Of a stretch of 64,000 nt of DNA, positions 1,109 through 7,808 are shown piece after piece. The DNA is from Candidatus Latescibacterota bacterium (GTDB lineage Bacteria; JAAXHH01), in contig JAJEAN010000007.1 of assembly GCA_022822725.1 (NCBI GenBank), positions 688,382 through 752,381 of the forward strand, written 5' to 3'. Both the position numbers and the translations under genes were made by a program. How positions within the stretch are numbered: position 1 is the stretch's first letter; each line of letters starts with the position of its first letter. The notes under the pieces are model-generated. The model saw only the letters and a list, made by a program, of their open reading frames with translations, was not told where the DNA came from and did no database searches.

Positions 1109-2806
1109 CTACTTCCGCTGAATCTTCGCCCAGGTATCGCGCAAGGCGATGGTCCGGTTGAACACCGGGCCGGTCTCGCCGGACGCCGGTTCGCCAGTTT
1201 TCGAATCTACTGAATCGACACAAAAGTACCCCAGCCGCTCGAACTGGTAGTTCACACCGGGCACAGCGTCCGCCAGTCCGGGTTCGACCTTGCAGTCCGT
1301 GACGGTCTTGAGCGAATCGGGATTCAGCAACGACTGGTCATCGCATGATTCGCCCGGACGGGGTTCCGGGTCGCTGAAGAGCCGGTCGTACAGGCGCACG
1401 GTGGCGTTCAGGGCGTGCGCGGCCGATACCCAGTGGATGGTGCCCCGTACTTTCCTACCGTCGGGCGTGCTGCCCCCCCGGGATTCCGGATCGTAGGTGC
1501 AGTGCAGTTCGACGACCCGTCCATCGTCATCCTTGATCACGTCCGTACAGGTGAGGTAGTAGCCGTAGCGCAGGCGGACTTCCCGACCCGGCGCCAGCCG
1601 GAAGAACTTCCGCGGCGGATCTTCCATGAAATCGTTCCGCTCGATGTAGATCTCCCGGGTAAAGGGCACCTGCCGCGTCCCCATGCCCTCGTCCTCTGGG
1701 TTGTTCACAGCCTCCATCTGCTCCGTGCGGTCGGTGGGGTAATTGGTAATCACGACCTTCAGCGGGTCCAATACGCCCATGACCCGTGGCGCCCGCTTGT
1801 TCAGGTCTTCCCGGATGATGAAATCCGACAGGGCCATGTCGATGAGATTGTGGTTCTTGGCCACGCCGACGCGGTCGCAGAGGGTCCGGATGGCCTCGGG
1901 CGTATATCCCCGGCGGCGCAGGCCGGACAGCGTGGGCATGCGCGGATCGTCCCACCCGGACAGCACGCCCTCCTCAATCAAGGGCCGGTAGAAGCGCTTC
2001 GACAGCACGGTATGGGCAAGGACAAGCGGCGCGAATTCGATCTGCTGCGGATGGTATACGTCCAGCCGGTCCAGGATCCAGTCGTAGAGCGGCCGGTTGT
2101 TCTCGAACTCCAGCGTGCAGAGCGAATGGGTGATGCCTTCGACGGAATCCGACAGGCAGTGGGTGAAATCGTACATGGGGTACACCCGCCACTTGTCCCC
2201 TGAACGGTAGTGATGGGCGTGGCGGATCCGGTACAGCACGGGATCGCGCATCGTCAGGTTGGGATGGGCCATGTCGATCCGGGCCCGCAGGACGTGGGCG
2301 CCGTCCGGGAACGCCCCGGCCTGCATGCGCCCGAACAGGTCCCGGTTCTCATCGACCGGCCGGTCGCGGTACGGACTGTCCCGGCCAGGTTCCGTGGGCG
2401 TGCCCCGGTGGTCCCGCATTTCCTCCCAGGTCAGGCTGTCGACGTAGGCGTCCCCTTGGTCGACAAGTTGCAGCGCGTAGGCGTACAGTTGATCGAAGTA
2501 ATCGGAAGCGAAGTACAGCCGGTCTTCCCAGTCGAATCCCAACCACCGGATGTCCCGTTTGATCCCCTCGACGAAGTCCACGTTTTCCGTCTCCGGATTC
2601 GAGTCGTCGAACCGGAGGTTGCACAGCCCGTCGTACTCCTCCGCCACCCCGAAATTCAGGCAGATCGACTTAGCGTGGCCGATATGGAGATAGCCGTTCG
2701 GCTCCGGGGGGAAACGGGTATGTACCTTGCCCCCGAACTTGCCGCTTTCCATGTCCGCGTCGATGATTTCGCGTATGAAGTCCCTATACTGTTTTTCTTC
2801 GCTCAT
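1109..2806 (-). CDS. glnS: Glutaminyl-tRNA synthetase
   Basis: A 565-residue class I aminoacyl-tRNA synthetase that charges tRNA-Gln with glutamine in the cytoplasm. The N-terminal catalytic fold has [15 protein letters not shown] with HIGH at residues 41-44, the GlnRS/GluRS-specific DDSNP stretch near 68, and VLSKR at 267-271 as the KMSKS loop. The C-terminal part is the GlnRS anticodon-binding beta-barrel region (for example [11 protein letters not shown]), and the protein ends near the family's usual length. The [15 protein letters not shown] form points to GlnRS rather than GluRS. AGGAAG lies just before the ATG, and a promoter is visible about 45 bases further upstream. A gatCAB route could coexist but is not in this window. 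Confidence 0.95.
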
Positions 2807-2977: not shown

Positions 2978-4129
2978 TCAGAACCCGTGGGCGCACGCAT
3001 GTCCAAGCCCTACAGCTTCCACGCGCTCGTGAACGCGAAACCTCGCATCGCCGGGGAACACGACGACGAGCCGGTCAAGTTTCAGGTCGGTCAACGCCGT
3101 GTGCATGGAACGCGTCAACGACGGCGTACTGGATCGCTTGAACTCGAACCCGGTTCTTCGGCCGCCTTCCATGATCAGGAGGTCAAGTTCCGGCCCGCGA
3201 TGCGTAGCCCAGTAGTAACAGTCTTCCCATGCAGTGCCGGTGATCCGGACCACCTCCTGCATGGCGAAGCCCTCCCATGACGCACCTGACTTCGGATGCC
3301 CCATGAGATCTGCCTCGTCTTTCACACCCAACAGTGCGTGCAACAGCCCCGTGTCCGAAAGATACACCTTGGGTGCCTTGACCTGCCGCTTCTTCAGATT
3401 CTCGTACCAGGGCTGCATTCTGCGCGCGACCAACGCACCGACGAGCGTGTCGAAATAGGTATTCACCGTCGGCGCCGTGACACCAAGTGCGCGGCCGAGT
3501 TCGGCACCGTTCCAGTGATTTCCGTGATAGTGGGCAAGCATGGTCCAGAACCGACGCATGGAGGCGGCAGGAACAGATACCCCGAGTTGGGGCAGGTCTC
3601 GTTCCAGGAACGATCGGATGAACGCCGTCCGCCAGGTAAGGCTGTCCTCATCGTTCCTTGCGAGGAACGAGGGAGGAAACCCGCCGCGCAACCAGAGACG
3701 GTCCGTTTCGTCGGCTCCCGTTTCGTTCACCCGCAGAGGCGGAAGTTCATAATATGCGATCCTGCCGGCGAGCGATTCCGAAGATTGGCGAAGAAGAGAG
3801 GGTCCCGCACTGCCCAGGACCAGAAAACGGGCCGGTATACCGGGGCGGTCCGCGAGTACGCGCAGCAGACGGAAAAGTCCTTCATTGCGCTGAACCTCGT
3901 CAATGACGACCAGCCCGCGGAGTGGTTCCAGTGCAAGCTTGGGATCGGACAGCCGGGTCTCGTCCGTCGGATCCTCGAGATCAAAAAAGGTGACGGAACG
4001 CGATTCGGCTTCGATCAATTGCCGTGCCAGCGTAGTCTTGCCGACCTGCCGAGCTCCGATGAGACAGACCACGGGAAACTGGTTTAGCAGTTTGCCAATT
4101 GCGGAGAGATGTTGCGTACGAGGGATCAT
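2978..4129 (-). CDS. AAA ATPase with C-terminal DUF4143
   Basis: A 383-residue cytoplasmic ATPase of the AAA_14/DUF4143 type. Walker A is GARQVGKTT at residues 25-33 and Walker B is LVVIDEVQR near 75. The C-terminal half contains KVYLSDTGLLHALLG and a nuclease-like ELDLLIMEGGRRTGFEFK stretch typical of DUF4143. Such genes are patchily distributed, often lie beside toxin-antitoxin or mobile DNA, and have no firmly established function. The longest frame opens with TTG at 4138. I chose the ATG at 4129, giving MIPRTQHL, the usual family start. It lies immediately downstream of the methyltransferase pseudogene and higBA, consistent with an acquired patch. Confidence 0.85.
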   Translation of the reverse strand: MIPRTQHLSAIGKLLNQFPVVCLIGARQVGKTTLARQLIEAESRSVTFFDLEDPTDETRLSDPKLALEPLRGLVVIDEVQRNEGLFRLLRVLADRPGIPARFLVLGSAGPSLLRQSSESLAGRIAYYELPPLRVNETGADETDRLWLRGGFPPSFLARNDEDSLTWRTAFIRSFLERDLPQLGVSVPAASMRRFWTMLAHYHGNHWNGAELGRALGVTAPTVNTYFDTLVGALVARRMQPWYENLKKRQVKAPKVYLSDTGLLHALLGVKDEADLMGHPKSGASWEGFAMQEVVRITGTAWEDCYYWATHRGPELDLLIMEGGRRTGFEFKRSSTPSLTRSMHTALTDLKLDRLVVVFPGDARFRVHERVEAVGLGHACAHGF

Positions 4130-4194
4130 ACCGAACAATATATGTGAAAATCGAAAGTGGCGCTATTGATTTTCAACATTGGCCTTCGGTTTTC

Positions 4195-4299
4195 CTACAT
4201 TGTCCTTGCCCACGCACCGATATGCGGCGGGATGACCACGGGACGCTACGACGCGACGATTTCGGCCCTGACACACTGGGGAATGGTGTCTATGTCCAC
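4195..4299 (-). pseudogene. Remnant of a methyltransferase 3' end, with in-frame stop
   Basis: About 97 bases here align without gaps to the last part of the methyltransferase gene at 5019-5115, with roughly 15 mismatches by my count. Translated on the minus strand it reads VDIDTIPQCVRAEIVAS, then a stop, then RPVVIPPHIGAWARTM and a second stop. The intact gene reads VDVETIPRRVRDEIVASKRPV followed by VIPPHIGAWTRIS. The AAG lysine codon has become TAG. Homology starts directly after the higA stop codon (4302-4304). It is therefore the decayed tail of a second methyltransferase copy, whose front part is replaced by higBA. Confidence 0.85.
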
Positions 4300-4301
4300 C
4301 G

Positions 4302-4634
4302 TTAAACACGTGCGGCTTCAATTGGCTTGATTCGGTCTCTGGCATGACGGCGTACTCGGGAACGAATTTCCTTGCCATTCATTACCAGTTCCCTGGATAA
4401 CTCATAGACTTTCTGAGCATTCATCCAGAACTCTGGTGTCTGGTCGAAATACTCACCTAAGGCGATGGCGGTTTCAGCGGTTACACCGCGCCGTTCATGA
4501 ACGATTTCATGAAGCCTCGTAGATGGTAGATCAATATCCCTCGCCAATCCATTGACTGTAAGGCCCATCTCCTGAATCTGCTCGAGAAGAAGCACCCCCG
4601 GGTGTGTCGCTATTCTGTTTGTAGGAACTGTCAT
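4302..4634 (-). CDS. higA: HigA-family antitoxin (XRE helix-turn-helix)
   Basis: A 110-residue DNA-binding antitoxin of the HigA/VapI type. It contains HPGVLLLEQIQEMGLTVNGL followed by LARDIDLPSTRLHEIVHERR, the XRE helix-turn-helix, then ITAETAIALGEYF-like text and TPEFWMNAQKVYEL, a family hallmark. It should neutralise HigB and repress the operon. GAGGT lies six bases before the ATG. higB ends 12 bases upstream, giving the toxin-first order usual for higBA. Its stop codon abuts the methyltransferase remnant. An inverted repeat at the higB promoter is its likely operator. Confidence 0.9.
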   Translation of the reverse strand: MTVPTNRIATHPGVLLLEQIQEMGLTVNGLARDIDLPSTRLHEIVHERRGVTAETAIALGEYFDQTPEFWMNAQKVYELSRELVMNGKEIRSRVRRHARDRIKPIEAARV

Positions 4635-4646
4635 AGTTTGACCTCT

Positions 4647-4931
4647 TCATTCGTAATGGTTGTTTAGTTCCACTTCAAAGGCATCTCCGTCCTTCCAGGT
4701 GAAACATATCCGCCATCCCCTGGAGACGCGAATACTGTAACGTTCCCCACGTAAACCTACCAGTCGTTCAAGTCTATTCCCCGTTGGTGTCTTGAGATCG
4801 CGGAGGACTTTTGCATTGTTGATCCGGTCCAACTTGATTCGCACACGATTGAGAAGATGATCAGGAACTGCCTTTACACGATTCCCCAGGAACACGTTCC
4901 TCGTCAGCTTATTGGCAAAAGATCGAATCAT
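4647..4931 (-). CDS. higB: HigB-type toxin (RelE/ParE superfamily)
   Basis: A 94-residue product beginning MIRSFANKLTRNVFLGN, with LERLVGLRGERYSIRV and GWRICFTWKDGDAFEVELN. This is the RelE/HigB fold of ribosome-dependent mRNA interferases. The open frame extends to a TTG at 4964, but HigB proteins normally begin at the MIRSF-like segment. The ATG at 4931 is therefore preferred; it has no Shine-Dalgarno. The predicted promoter places the transcript start almost on this ATG, so translation may be leaderless. Basic residues and the C-terminal NNHYE match the family. The pair is a type II toxin-antitoxin module. Confidence 0.88.
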   Translation of the reverse strand: MIRSFANKLTRNVFLGNRVKAVPDHLLNRVRIKLDRINNAKVLRDLKTPTGNRLERLVGLRGERYSIRVSRGWRICFTWKDGDAFEVELNNHYE

Positions 4932-4935
4932 GTCG

Positions 4936-4964
4936 AATCTATTACGAATAACGTAATACGTCAA
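4936..4964 (-). promoter_or_regulatory. higBA promoter with overlapping palindromic operator
   Basis: On the minus strand TTGACG (4964-4959), a 17-base spacer and TAGATT (4941-4936) form a promoter. Inside it ATTACG-N5-CGTAAT (4941-4957) is a perfect six-base-arm inverted repeat filling the spacer. An operator covering the core promoter is the known layout for HigA autorepression. The predicted start site coincides with the higB ATG. Confidence 0.6.
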
Positions 4965-5010
4965 GAGTAATTTGTCATTCCAACTCCACTTAATGAGTTA
5001 GTAGATTTCG

Positions 5011-5844
5011 TTAAGAAATCCTCGTCCACGCCCCGATATGCGGCGGGATGACCACGGGACGCTTCGACGCGACGATTTCATCCCGGACGCGCCGGGGTAT
5101 GGTCTCCACGTCCACTTCTTCCGCGGTGGCGATCCCGTAATGCTCCAGCAGGGGAAGCACGCTCTGGAAGGAATTCGCCACATAGGAGTATCCCGGCCAG
5201 TCGGCGGATCCTCCGATCAACAGGCCGGCATCCAGTGTCGGTTCGGGCAGCCCCGCGTCGACGAACACCCGGTAGAGTTCCATGCCCATGTTGCCGTTGG
5301 CCCCGGACCGCTCGAAAACCTCGACGACCCAGTCGCCGAGCTGACCCATGAGCGGGGTATCGGGGTGCTTGTAGGCCTCGGTGATCGTGAAATCGATCTC
5401 CTGGAACATGACGATGCCGCCGGAGCGCAGGCGGGGAATCAACTCCTTCAGGACCGCGACCGGATCGGGCAGATACATGAGCACCAGCCGGCCGACCAGG
5501 GCGTCGAAGTCGCCCCCGACGTCAAGCGTCTGTATGTCGCCGGCATGAAACGCCACGTTTTTGTGCCCCGCCTTCTCGACCCGTTCCCGCGCCGTTTCAA
5601 GGATGTCGGGATTCATGTCCACGCCCACGACTTCCCCCGTCGGCCCCACGAGTTCCGCGACGGCCAGCGCCACGTCACCGGCGCCGCTACCGATATCGAG
5701 TACCCGCATCCCGCTGCGGATACCGGCCGATTTCAGAAATCGTCTCGTGATCGGTTCGAAGAGCCGGGACTGTTCGATCAGGCGCTCCGTCTCTTCGTCA
5801 CTGCGTCCCGGGGTATATCGTCGTTCGCTGTGGTGGTCCGTCAT
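5011..5844 (-). CDS. Class I SAM-dependent methyltransferase (UbiE-like)
   Basis: A 277-residue soluble methyltransferase. SAM-binding motif I is VLDIGSGAGDVALAVAELVG near residues 48-67, followed by VVGVDMNPDILETARERV and HAGDIQTLDVGGDFDALVGR. The rest resembles ubiquinone/menaquinone-type methyltransferases, but the C-terminal substrate region gives no specific match. AGGAG lies about 12 bases before the ATG, and a 13-base tandem duplication lies in the leader. Its 3' end is duplicated downstream of higBA as a decayed remnant, so a tandem paralogue probably once existed. The substrate is unknown. Confidence 0.85.
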   Translation of the reverse strand: MTDHHSERRYTPGRSDEETERLIEQSRLFEPITRRFLKSAGIRSGMRVLDIGSGAGDVALAVAELVGPTGEVVGVDMNPDILETARERVEKAGHKNVAFHAGDIQTLDVGGDFDALVGRLVLMYLPDPVAVLKELIPRLRSGGIVMFQEIDFTITEAYKHPDTPLMGQLGDWVVEVFERSGANGNMGMELYRVFVDAGLPEPTLDAGLLIGGSADWPGYSYVANSFQSVLPLLEHYGIATAEEVDVETIPRRVRDEIVASKRPVVIPPHIGAWTRIS

Positions 5845-5898: not shown

Positions 5899-6013
5899 GC
5901 GCTTTAATCTGTGCAGACATATTCAGAGTGGCACAAAGTGGGCAGCTAGACTACCCGCGTCAATCTCTTTAAGGCACTCCGGCACCCTTCACTGAAGCAT
6001 GAATCCGTCCACC

Positions 6014-6175
6014 CGCCTCACTCCTTCACCGCCCCCAGCGCCCCAGAATGATTCCCTGCACGACGTCCCGCCTCACTCCTGCACCGCCCTCAGCGCCCCA
6101 GCGTGATCCCCTGCACGACCACTCACCTCACTCCTTCACCGCCCCCAGCGTGATCCCCTGCACGAACTCCCGCTG
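6014..6175. repeat. Three 55-base units duplicating the 3' end of the permease gene
   Basis: The motif C[AG]CCTCACTCC begins at 6014, 6069 and 6124, an exact 55-base period. The third unit holds the stop codon and last codons (FVQGITLGAVKE) of the permease gene. The two downstream units are diverged copies of that gene end, including a stop-like TGA. The coding unit lacks eight bases present in the other two. The region 5845-6127 holds no other gene. Confidence 0.85.
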
Positions 6176-6952
6176 CATCGCGAGGAACAGGGCCATGATG
6201 GGGAGGATGGACAGCAGCGTACCGGCCATGAGCATGCCGTATTCCTGGCGGTAGACACCCACCAGGCTGGCCAGGCCGAGGGGCAGGGTGTACTTGGCGG
6301 CGTCCCGCAGGACGATCATGGGCCATAGGAACTCATTCCAGGCCCCCAGGAACCCGAATATGCTCAGGGCGCCCATGGCCGGCTTCACGGCCGGGATGAT
6401 GACGCGCCAGTAGATGCCGAACTCCGACGAACCGTCGATCCGCGCCTGGTCGATGAGGTCCGAGGGCACGCCGAGGATGAACTGGCGCATGAGGAACACG
6501 CCGAACCCGCTGGAAGCCAGGTAGGGCAGGATCACGCCCTGGTAGGTGTCGAGCCAGCCGAACTGGTACAACAGGGTGAACAGGGGCACCAGCACCAGGT
6601 GAAAGGGGATCATCATGGAGGCGAGGACGATGGCGAAGAGGACGCCGCGGCCCCGGAACGAGTACTTGGCGAAGGCGAACCCGCCCATGGTGGCGATAGC
6701 CAGGAGCAGCAGGGTGTGCGAAGTGGCCAGGAAGGTGCTGTTCACGACGTACTGGACGATGGGCATTTCCTGGAACAGCCGGGTGAAGTTCTCGAGCGTG
6801 GGATCCTGGGGAAGAAAGGTGGGCGGATAGGAGAAGATCTCGCCCGACGGCTTGAAGGAAGCGGATACCACCCAGAACAGCGGCGTCAGGACCAGGACGG
6901 TCAGCAAAATCAGGAGCACATAGGTGATGGTGGTGCGAACAGGGTTTCTCAT
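6128..6952 (-). CDS. Sugar ABC transporter permease (MalG/UgpE type)
   Basis: A 274-residue inner-membrane permease with six predicted membrane segments. The MalG-type EAA loop is near the C-terminus (LIDQARIDGSSEFGIYWRVI followed by IPAVKPAMGALSIFGFLGAW). Together with the preceding permease and binding protein it should import a sugar or glycoside. The open frame reaches a TTG at 6979. I chose the ATG at 6952 (MRNPVRTTITY), four bases after the stop of the upstream permease. No ATP-binding subunit is in the cluster, so a shared MsmX/UgpC-type ATPase encoded elsewhere is likely. The gene end is triplicated downstream. Confidence 0.9.
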   Translation of the reverse strand: MRNPVRTTITYVLLILLTVLVLTPLFWVVSASFKPSGEIFSYPPTFLPQDPTLENFTRLFQEMPIVQYVVNSTFLATSHTLLLLAIATMGGFAFAKYSFRGRGVLFAIVLASMMIPFHLVLVPLFTLLYQFGWLDTYQGVILPYLASSGFGVFLMRQFILGVPSDLIDQARIDGSSEFGIYWRVIIPAVKPAMGALSIFGFLGAWNEFLWPMIVLRDAAKYTLPLGLASLVGVYRQEYGMLMAGTLLSILPIMALFLAMQREFVQGITLGAVKE

Positions 6953-6956
6953 GAGG

Positions 6957-7808
6957 TCAGTTTTCCCTGAATACGCCAAATAACCGGACCTGGATGATGG
7001 AAATCACCCCGATGATCACGGCCAGGGCCCATCCGATCGTGGCCGCGTAACCAAGGTTGATGAATTCGAATCCGTGCTTGTACAGGTACATCACCATAGT
7101 CATGCTCGCGTTGCCGGGGCCGCCCTCCGTGAGCACGTAGGGCAGGTCGAAGAGCTGGAATGACCCGATCATGGAGGTGATGACCACGAAGGCAATCACG
7201 GGCTTCAAGGCAGGGATCGTTACGTGGACGAAGCTTTGCCAGGGTCCCGCGCCGTCCACCGCCGCCGCCTCGTAGAGCTCCTGGCGGATGCTCTGTAGCC
7301 CCGCGAGGAAGTAGACCATATTGAATCCCGCCCACCGCCATACGCCGGCCAGCACGAGGGCGGGCATGACCAGGTCCGGGTCCTGAAGCCACTGGATTTC
7401 GGAACCGAGGACCCGGTTCACCAGGCCGTAGCGCCGGTCGTACAAGAGGTAGAAGATCACGGCGATGAAGACGCCGGAGATCAGCACCGGCGAGAAGAAG
7501 GAAAGGCGGAACAGGTTCCGGCCCTTCAGGCGGGCATTGCTGAGGAGCAGTGCGAGGGCCAGGGCCACGGGCAGTTGCAGGAGCAGGCTGCCCGCGGCGA
7601 AATAGGCCGTGTTCCAGAGGGCGGTCCAGAAGAGCGGGTCCGCGATCAGCCGTTCGATGTTCTCGAGGCCCACGAAGGTCTGGTTCTGCATGCCCCGGAC
7701 ACTGTACGTGCTGAGACGGATCGAATCGAACAGGGGGTAGACCATGAAGACCCCGAAGAGCGCGAAGAAAGGCGCGAGGAAGAAGTAGGGGGCGTACCGG
7801 GGCTTCAT
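6957..7808 (-). CDS. Sugar ABC transporter permease (MalF/UgpA type)
   Basis: A 283-residue inner-membrane protein that starts KPRYAPYFFLAPFFALFGVF, a first membrane helix typical of MalF/UgpA-type permeases. The EAA loop is ELYEAAAVDGAGPWQSFVHV followed by TIPALKP, the site that contacts the ATPase. It pairs with the downstream MalG-type permease to form the channel. Its ATG overlaps the binding-protein stop codon by four bases (ATGA), indicating translational coupling. Specificity is not visible, but the family is confined to carbohydrates and related compounds. Confidence 0.9.
   Translation of the reverse strand: MKPRYAPYFFLAPFFALFGVFMVYPLFDSIRLSTYSVRGMQNQTFVGLENIERLIADPLFWTALWNTAYFAAGSLLLQLPVALALALLLSNARLKGRNLFRLSFFSPVLISGVFIAVIFYLLYDRRYGLVNRVLGSEIQWLQDPDLVMPALVLAGVWRWAGFNMVYFLAGLQSIRQELYEAAAVDGAGPWQSFVHVTIPALKPVIAFVVITSMIGSFQLFDLPYVLTEGGPGNASMTMVMYLYKHGFEFINLGYAATIGWALAVIIGVISIIQVRLFGVFREN

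Follow-up and report, generated by a model that had tools for sequence, protein, structure and literature searches.

A higBA toxin-antitoxin operon between two copies of a methyltransferase gene end in a Latescibacterota-type genome

The direct repeat around higBA

The DNA analysed here (the window, 64 kb within a 2.54 Mb contig of a genome of 9 contigs and 3.8 Mb) raises the question of how a toxin-antitoxin operon came to lie between two homologous ends of a methyltransferase gene. On the minus strand, which carries all the features of the locus, the order is the methyltransferase gene with a first copy of its end (tail A), higB, higA, a second copy of the end (tail B), a hairpin, a DUF4143/AAA_14 ATPase gene and glnS. 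The methyltransferase (5011..5844) is an intact class I SAM-dependent enzyme of 277 aa (Pfam Methyltransf_31, E 8e-28), and tail A (5019..5115) forms its functional end. Between this gene and higB, the junction and the region upstream of higB (4965..5018) have no match at this place in relatives. Tail B (4203..4299) is followed by the hairpin GAAAATCAATAGCGCCACTTTCGATTTTC (4146..4174), which in relatives stands after the single tail and is the methyltransferase's native 3′ hairpin; its region folds at -24.3 kcal/mol (z -3.5). Beyond lie the ATPase gene (2978..4138, with an ATG at 4129) and a glnS-type aminoacyl-tRNA synthetase gene (1109..2806; Pfam tRNA-synt_1c, E 1e-99), which is syntenic in relatives and constitutes the conserved border of the variable interval.

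The original prediction, made from the letters of this DNA, had described a recurrence of about 97 bases with some 15 differences, starting directly after the higA stop codon, with a TAG in place of a lysine codon and the toxin-antitoxin pair filling the gap between the two tails. Comparison of the copies confirmed this description: 83 of the 97 bases match, leaving 14 differences (86% identity, with a longest identical run of about 31 nt), one copy borders higBA directly on each side, 2 nt separate the stop of higA (4634-4302) from tail B, and tail B carries the in-frame TAG at a lysine codon. When the 64 kb window was compared with itself by BLAST, the pair scored an E value of about 4e-25. 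The only other self-match with E<1e-4 was a tandem repeat at 6006-6173, so that no widely spaced direct repeats besides the tails were found at this threshold in the 64 kb, and we counted this low background in favour of insertion with duplication. In the whole 3.8 Mb genome the tail is present in two copies and no third. Since the next-best match has an E value of 0.06, the tail is not a motif common to methyltransferases, and the remnant did not prove equally similar to many of them, an outcome that would have counted against the original prediction; the other methyltransferases of the genome resemble the query weakly, mostly in the SAM-binding core. The hairpin was likewise considered as a dispersed repeat causing the duplication, which was ruled out because it occupies one locus in its own genome. 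A separate observation concerns an ABC permease gene (6128-6979): beyond its 3′ end, about 55 nt of the gene's tail are repeated twice more in tandem (6012-6176), and the alignments of several relatives contain fewer copies.

The empty site and the native gene end

Orthologues of the methyltransferase were found in 10 of the 11 other congeners searched. Three of these genomes (G006, G007 and G008) form a near clade with that of the window, with p-distances of 0.05-0.08 and dS of 0.15-0.17 for the pairs computed (0.15-0.16 to G006 and G008), while the other congeners carrying the gene form a far clade at a dS of about 0.9. In G008, read from loci L022 and L034, one methyltransferase tail runs straight into the hairpin and the DUF4143 ATPase gene without higBA, constituting an empty site. 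Both tails of the window map to this one tail (1500-1596 of L022) and the rest is collinear at 92-94%; the ATPase gene stands at the same place, with 94.7% nucleotide identity, no gaps and a dN/dS of about 0.08. The search for relatives suggested by the original prediction therefore yielded, in G008, a strain with one gene and no higBA. It yielded none with two intact methyltransferases, as two genes of this type occurred together in none of the family genomes examined and the two matches of G011 were halves of one gene on separate contigs. A higA-like gene without a complete higB lies beyond the hairpin in G006, G007, G003, G010 and G011, and in G002, G004, G005 and G009 the interval contains neither a higA-like gene nor higB. 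The arrangement of tail A, higBA and tail B was present in one sampled genome only. This singularity counts against the reading that we favour below; at the same time, with the site empty in G008, relatives do not share the arrangement free of any sign of insertion.

The two tails end differently. Tail B closes with ..GAWARTM and a stop, after which come the spacer and hairpin that G008 also has. Tail A matches the near relatives at 92-94 of 97 bases and then departs from the family sequence: its last two codons and stop (ATTTCTTAA) are new, giving ..TRIS as opposed to the native ..ARTM or ..ARTR, and the length of the methyltransferase is unchanged despite the remade end. Because tail B shares the ..ARTM ending, the spacer and the unique hairpin with the relatives, it represents the original end. 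The original prediction was right that there are two tails, but the direction it assumed, an intact end and a decayed copy of it, is reversed: judged by comparison with relatives, the apparently decayed copy at 4203-4299 lies at the native gene end and the intact gene bears an end remade at the junction, at 5019.

Tail B is also uneven in its divergence. Compared with every near relative, 10 of its bases are private; 8 of these fall within the first 36 nt, against 2 in the remaining 61 nt (Fisher p 0.005, or 0.04 when any breakpoint is allowed). At three of the six sites that distinguish the near from the far clade (sites 7, 12 and 18) it carries the far-clade state, with a simulated P of 2e-4 under random substitution that ignores codon effects; sites 49 and 95 are of the near-clade type, as is all the sequence downstream. 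A maximum likelihood tree placed tail B just outside the near clade; the AU test for sisterhood with tail A gave p 0.10. Neither the uneven divergence nor the far-clade states are predicted by a simple recent duplication. Private changes amount to about 0.07-0.10 per site and the neutral expectation to about 0.075 per lineage, from which we infer that the event took place near the time when the near clade split, or somewhat earlier. The duplication could have that age, the insert having been lost in the relatives when the copies recombined; otherwise the initial part of tail B was brought in by the cargo.

The higBA cargo

The toxin gene (4647..4931, 94 aa from the ATG at 4931, with a frame extendable from a TTG at 4964) matches PF05015 above its cut-off (E 5e-14), a feature of HigB-type toxins with the RelE fold, and matches solved structures in sequence (PDB 6f8s_B, E 5e-14; 4mct_B, a HigB, E 3e-5). 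The gene downstream (4302..4634, 110 aa) matches the antidote_HigA model TIGR02607 (E 2e-22; 79 bits against a cut-off of 47.7) and HigA-type entries of the PDB, and encodes the HigA-type HTH antitoxin. In front of the pair, a sigma-70-like promoter, TTGACG-17-TAGATT, was found at 4936..4964, one such site being no more than the chance rate. The palindrome TTACG-TTATT-CGTAA between its hexamers is a possible HigA operator, and a similar TTGACGTATTAC motif is present upstream of the higA of G006. By family models and structure matches, the pair is an ordinary HigBA type II toxin-antitoxin system, for which toxicity of HigB and neutralisation by HigA are the predicted functions. It resembles HigBA and GraTA (PF05015, TIGR02607; PDB 6f8s, 4mct) in having the toxin first, the HigA-type HTH antitoxin second and a promoter-like site with a palindrome in front, and its chromosomal position alone is unusual.

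The higA of the window differs from the five higA genes located in the same interval of the relatives by a dS of 0.9-1.3, whereas these differ among themselves by 0.45-0.81. Since the neighbouring methyltransferase is only 0.15-0.16 away from those of G006 and G008, the window gene does not behave as a local allele and, on these distances, is foreign to the locus. A search for a donor gave no match in plasmid DNA, less than 60% identity among plasmid proteins and nothing in viral contigs; poribacterial methyltransferases were discarded as a source of the tail for being too distant (46-57 of 97 bases). The insert (4300-5018) encodes only higB and higA, with no integrase or transposase ORF. No inverted-repeat pair bounding it was found among the pairs listed, so that it lacks the marks of a transposon or IS insertion (transposase, terminal inverted repeats or short target duplication), and the window contains no tRNA, tmRNA or RNA-family attachment site.

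Several observations concern related genes in the vicinity. The five higA genes without a complete higB, all in the interval between the methyltransferase and glnS (L021 in G006, L025 in G010, L026 in G003, L032 in G011 and L028 in G007), are under purifying selection, with dN/dS of 0.11-0.28 between them. Four of the five loci retain the last 8-14 codons of higB, with at least two distinct deletion endpoints, and these resident genes may possibly act as anti-addiction antitoxins. A second, different HigB/HigA-like pair is located just past glnS, just outside the low end of the window (L177, 5583-6237; G000:C9, about 687.6-688.2 kb), and G002, G003 and G011 likewise have HigB-like matches within a few kb of the methyltransferase.

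Similar scars in the genus and the route of insertion

Toxin, PIN and DUF4143 loci of the family were scanned for flanking direct repeats, and two further cases survived inspection. In G009 and G010, a sulfatase gene with an intact end (..PPAEDAEKPGL and a stop) is followed by a DUF4143 gene in the opposite orientation, beyond which lies a second copy of the last 32-37 nt of the sulfatase gene, stop included, joined to the native downstream sequence. The tail is single and contiguous in G000, G005, G006 and G011, which represent empty sites. At the same gene end, G003 and G004 carry a block some 15 kb long, in which the DUF4143 gene adjoins the second tail (L263, G003:C42; L262, G004:C4) and an RND efflux system, an HlyD-type protein and several similar 6-bladed beta-propeller genes lie between the sulfatase gene and that tail; no recombinase or integrase was recognised among the ORFs listed for this block, part of which were scanned. 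The second case is the relB leader of G005 and G011, where a higBA pair lies between two copies of about 37-56 nt, the leader being single in G009 and G010 (empty site). Low-complexity repeats at L013 and L147 were not counted as flanking duplications, and neither were the repeats at the DUF4143 loci L164, L166 and L173, where short TTGCAATTGGACGG-type motifs cluster on both sides; we take these clusters to be probably IS21-like ends. At L143 (1386-1499), a 57-nt tandem duplication (91%) stands just before a PIN-domain toxin gene. Most of the toxin, PIN and DUF4143 loci scanned had no flanking duplication. This counts against the reading that follows, and we claim neither a rate nor a specificity for the process.

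We counted as established that the gene end is duplicated, that a relative has the site empty, that higA is of foreign origin, where the native end lies, that the insert is free of recombination genes and that two similar scars exist elsewhere in the genus. Taken together, the lack of recombination genes in a small module, the empty site and 30-100 bp of duplicated target fit insertion with a long target duplication, and we consider it probable that a bare, horizontally acquired higBA operon was inserted in this way at the 3′ end of the methyltransferase gene. An operon of about 719 bp, lacking transposase and integrase, would have entered the very 3′ end of the chromosomal gene, duplicating about 97 bp of the target and leaving one copy on each side. 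The methyltransferase frame would be kept through tail A, with the junction supplying the last two residues and the stop, while tail B, still joined to the native end and the hairpin, would have decayed as a non-coding remnant. Equipped with its own promoter-like site, higBA would now lie between the methyltransferase and its old hairpin. Duplication and insertion may have been one event, perhaps by a staggered break or by replication-fork repair with end joining, as could be proposed for restriction-modification genes, and addiction would then retain the pair.

The main rival, which we regard as unlikely, is that higBA came already attached to part of the tail of a related methyltransferase gene, and that homologous recombination within this part integrated it, either by a single crossover of a circle or by homology-facilitated recombination of a linear fragment, so that the start of tail B would be the donor's and the rest the host's. 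Such a route would account for the mosaic of tail B, with far-clade states at sites 7, 12 and 18 in its first 36 nt, and for its position just outside the near clade in the tree; higA-type genes do adjoin the methyltransferase in far-clade genomes. However, tail B as sister of tail A was not rejected (AU test, p 0.10), and an ancient duplication predating the derived states of the near clade explains the same sites. In addition, the higA genes of the relatives lie beyond the hairpin and are not joined to a tail, no donor was found, and the duplications at two other loci involve unrelated target genes. We consider it improbable that, instead, a fragment from a G008-like donor (methyltransferase tail, hairpin, ATPase and glnS) took the place of the sequence following higA in a chromosome already bearing higBA, its left end being joined illegitimately after the higA stop. 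Although tail B, hairpin and ATPase are collinear with G008 as one block and five relatives hold higA genes in the interval, the higA of the window is not of the resident type (dS about 1), tail A lacks the native hairpin of the resident alleles, which requires a second illegitimate event, and the other two duplicated loci would be left unexplained.

The original prediction had itself offered two routes. In one, the methyltransferase gene had been duplicated in tandem and higBA entered the duplicate, removing its front; a tandem duplication of the tail alone can be considered along with it. The empty site of G008 supports the insertion but not the tandem duplicate: no relative carries two methyltransferases or a tandem tail, and the insertion would have had to hit the tandem junction exactly. 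Tandem copies of a gene tail do exist nearby (the ABC permease tail at 6012-6176), and even so we give this route very little probability. An assembly or binning artefact is less probable still; the locus is known from an assembly and the relatives with records are metagenome-assembled genomes, but there are 14 differences between the 97-base copies, which sit well within one contig of 2.54 Mb and have flanks collinear with independent assemblies. The other route was arrival together with a replacement gene end, as for integrative elements, which restore the end of the gene when they integrate at gene 3′ ends. The replacement has support in the new last two codons and stop of tail A and in the outside-clade states of the first 36 nt of tail B. 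Its attribution to an integrative element does not, as the insert holds no integrase and the window no tRNA or tmRNA gene, and no single integrase target is evident because the other insertions hit the sulfatase end and the relB leader. The locus resembles such elements in keeping the gene end on one side and a remnant of the end on the other, with native downstream DNA after the remnant; it differs in having no integrase or excision gene in 816 bp, a protein gene as target and copies only 86% alike, and the other insertions of this type in the genus use unrelated targets. A long target duplication accounts better for the locus than an integrative element does.

Insertions of this kind have precedents. 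Passages of PMC3874152 describe some restriction-modification systems that insert with long, variable target duplications of the order of 100 bp; such insertions of restriction-modification genes are also described in passages of PMC3031569 and PMC1643837, and all three cite Nobusato et al. 2000 for Helicobacter pylori. The locus resembles the H. pylori insertions, as presented in those passages, in combining a bare addiction-type module without transposase, a long and variable target duplication and an empty site in a relative. It differs from them, as described there, in its cargo (a type II toxin-antitoxin operon or, at the sulfatase, a DUF4143 ATPase), in its host, which has a Latescibacterota-type genome, and in a duplication that spans a gene 3′ end with the reading frame preserved.

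The event belongs with a type of gene movement that is known but has received little explanation, in this instance with a toxin-antitoxin operon, and the scars point to movement without a visible transposase. More tentatively, the small selfish modules of the genus (type II toxin-antitoxin pairs and DUF4143 ATPases) might move bare by a common route that duplicates 30-100 bp of the target, often a gene 3′ end, leaves the target gene working and can be reversed when the two copies recombine. The three insertions in this genus, each with an empty site and a long target duplication, provide concrete junctions at which to study the spread of toxin-antitoxin operons from one chromosome to another in the absence of a visible mobile element. 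They extend to toxin-antitoxin genes a signature that the cited sources tie to restriction-modification genes.
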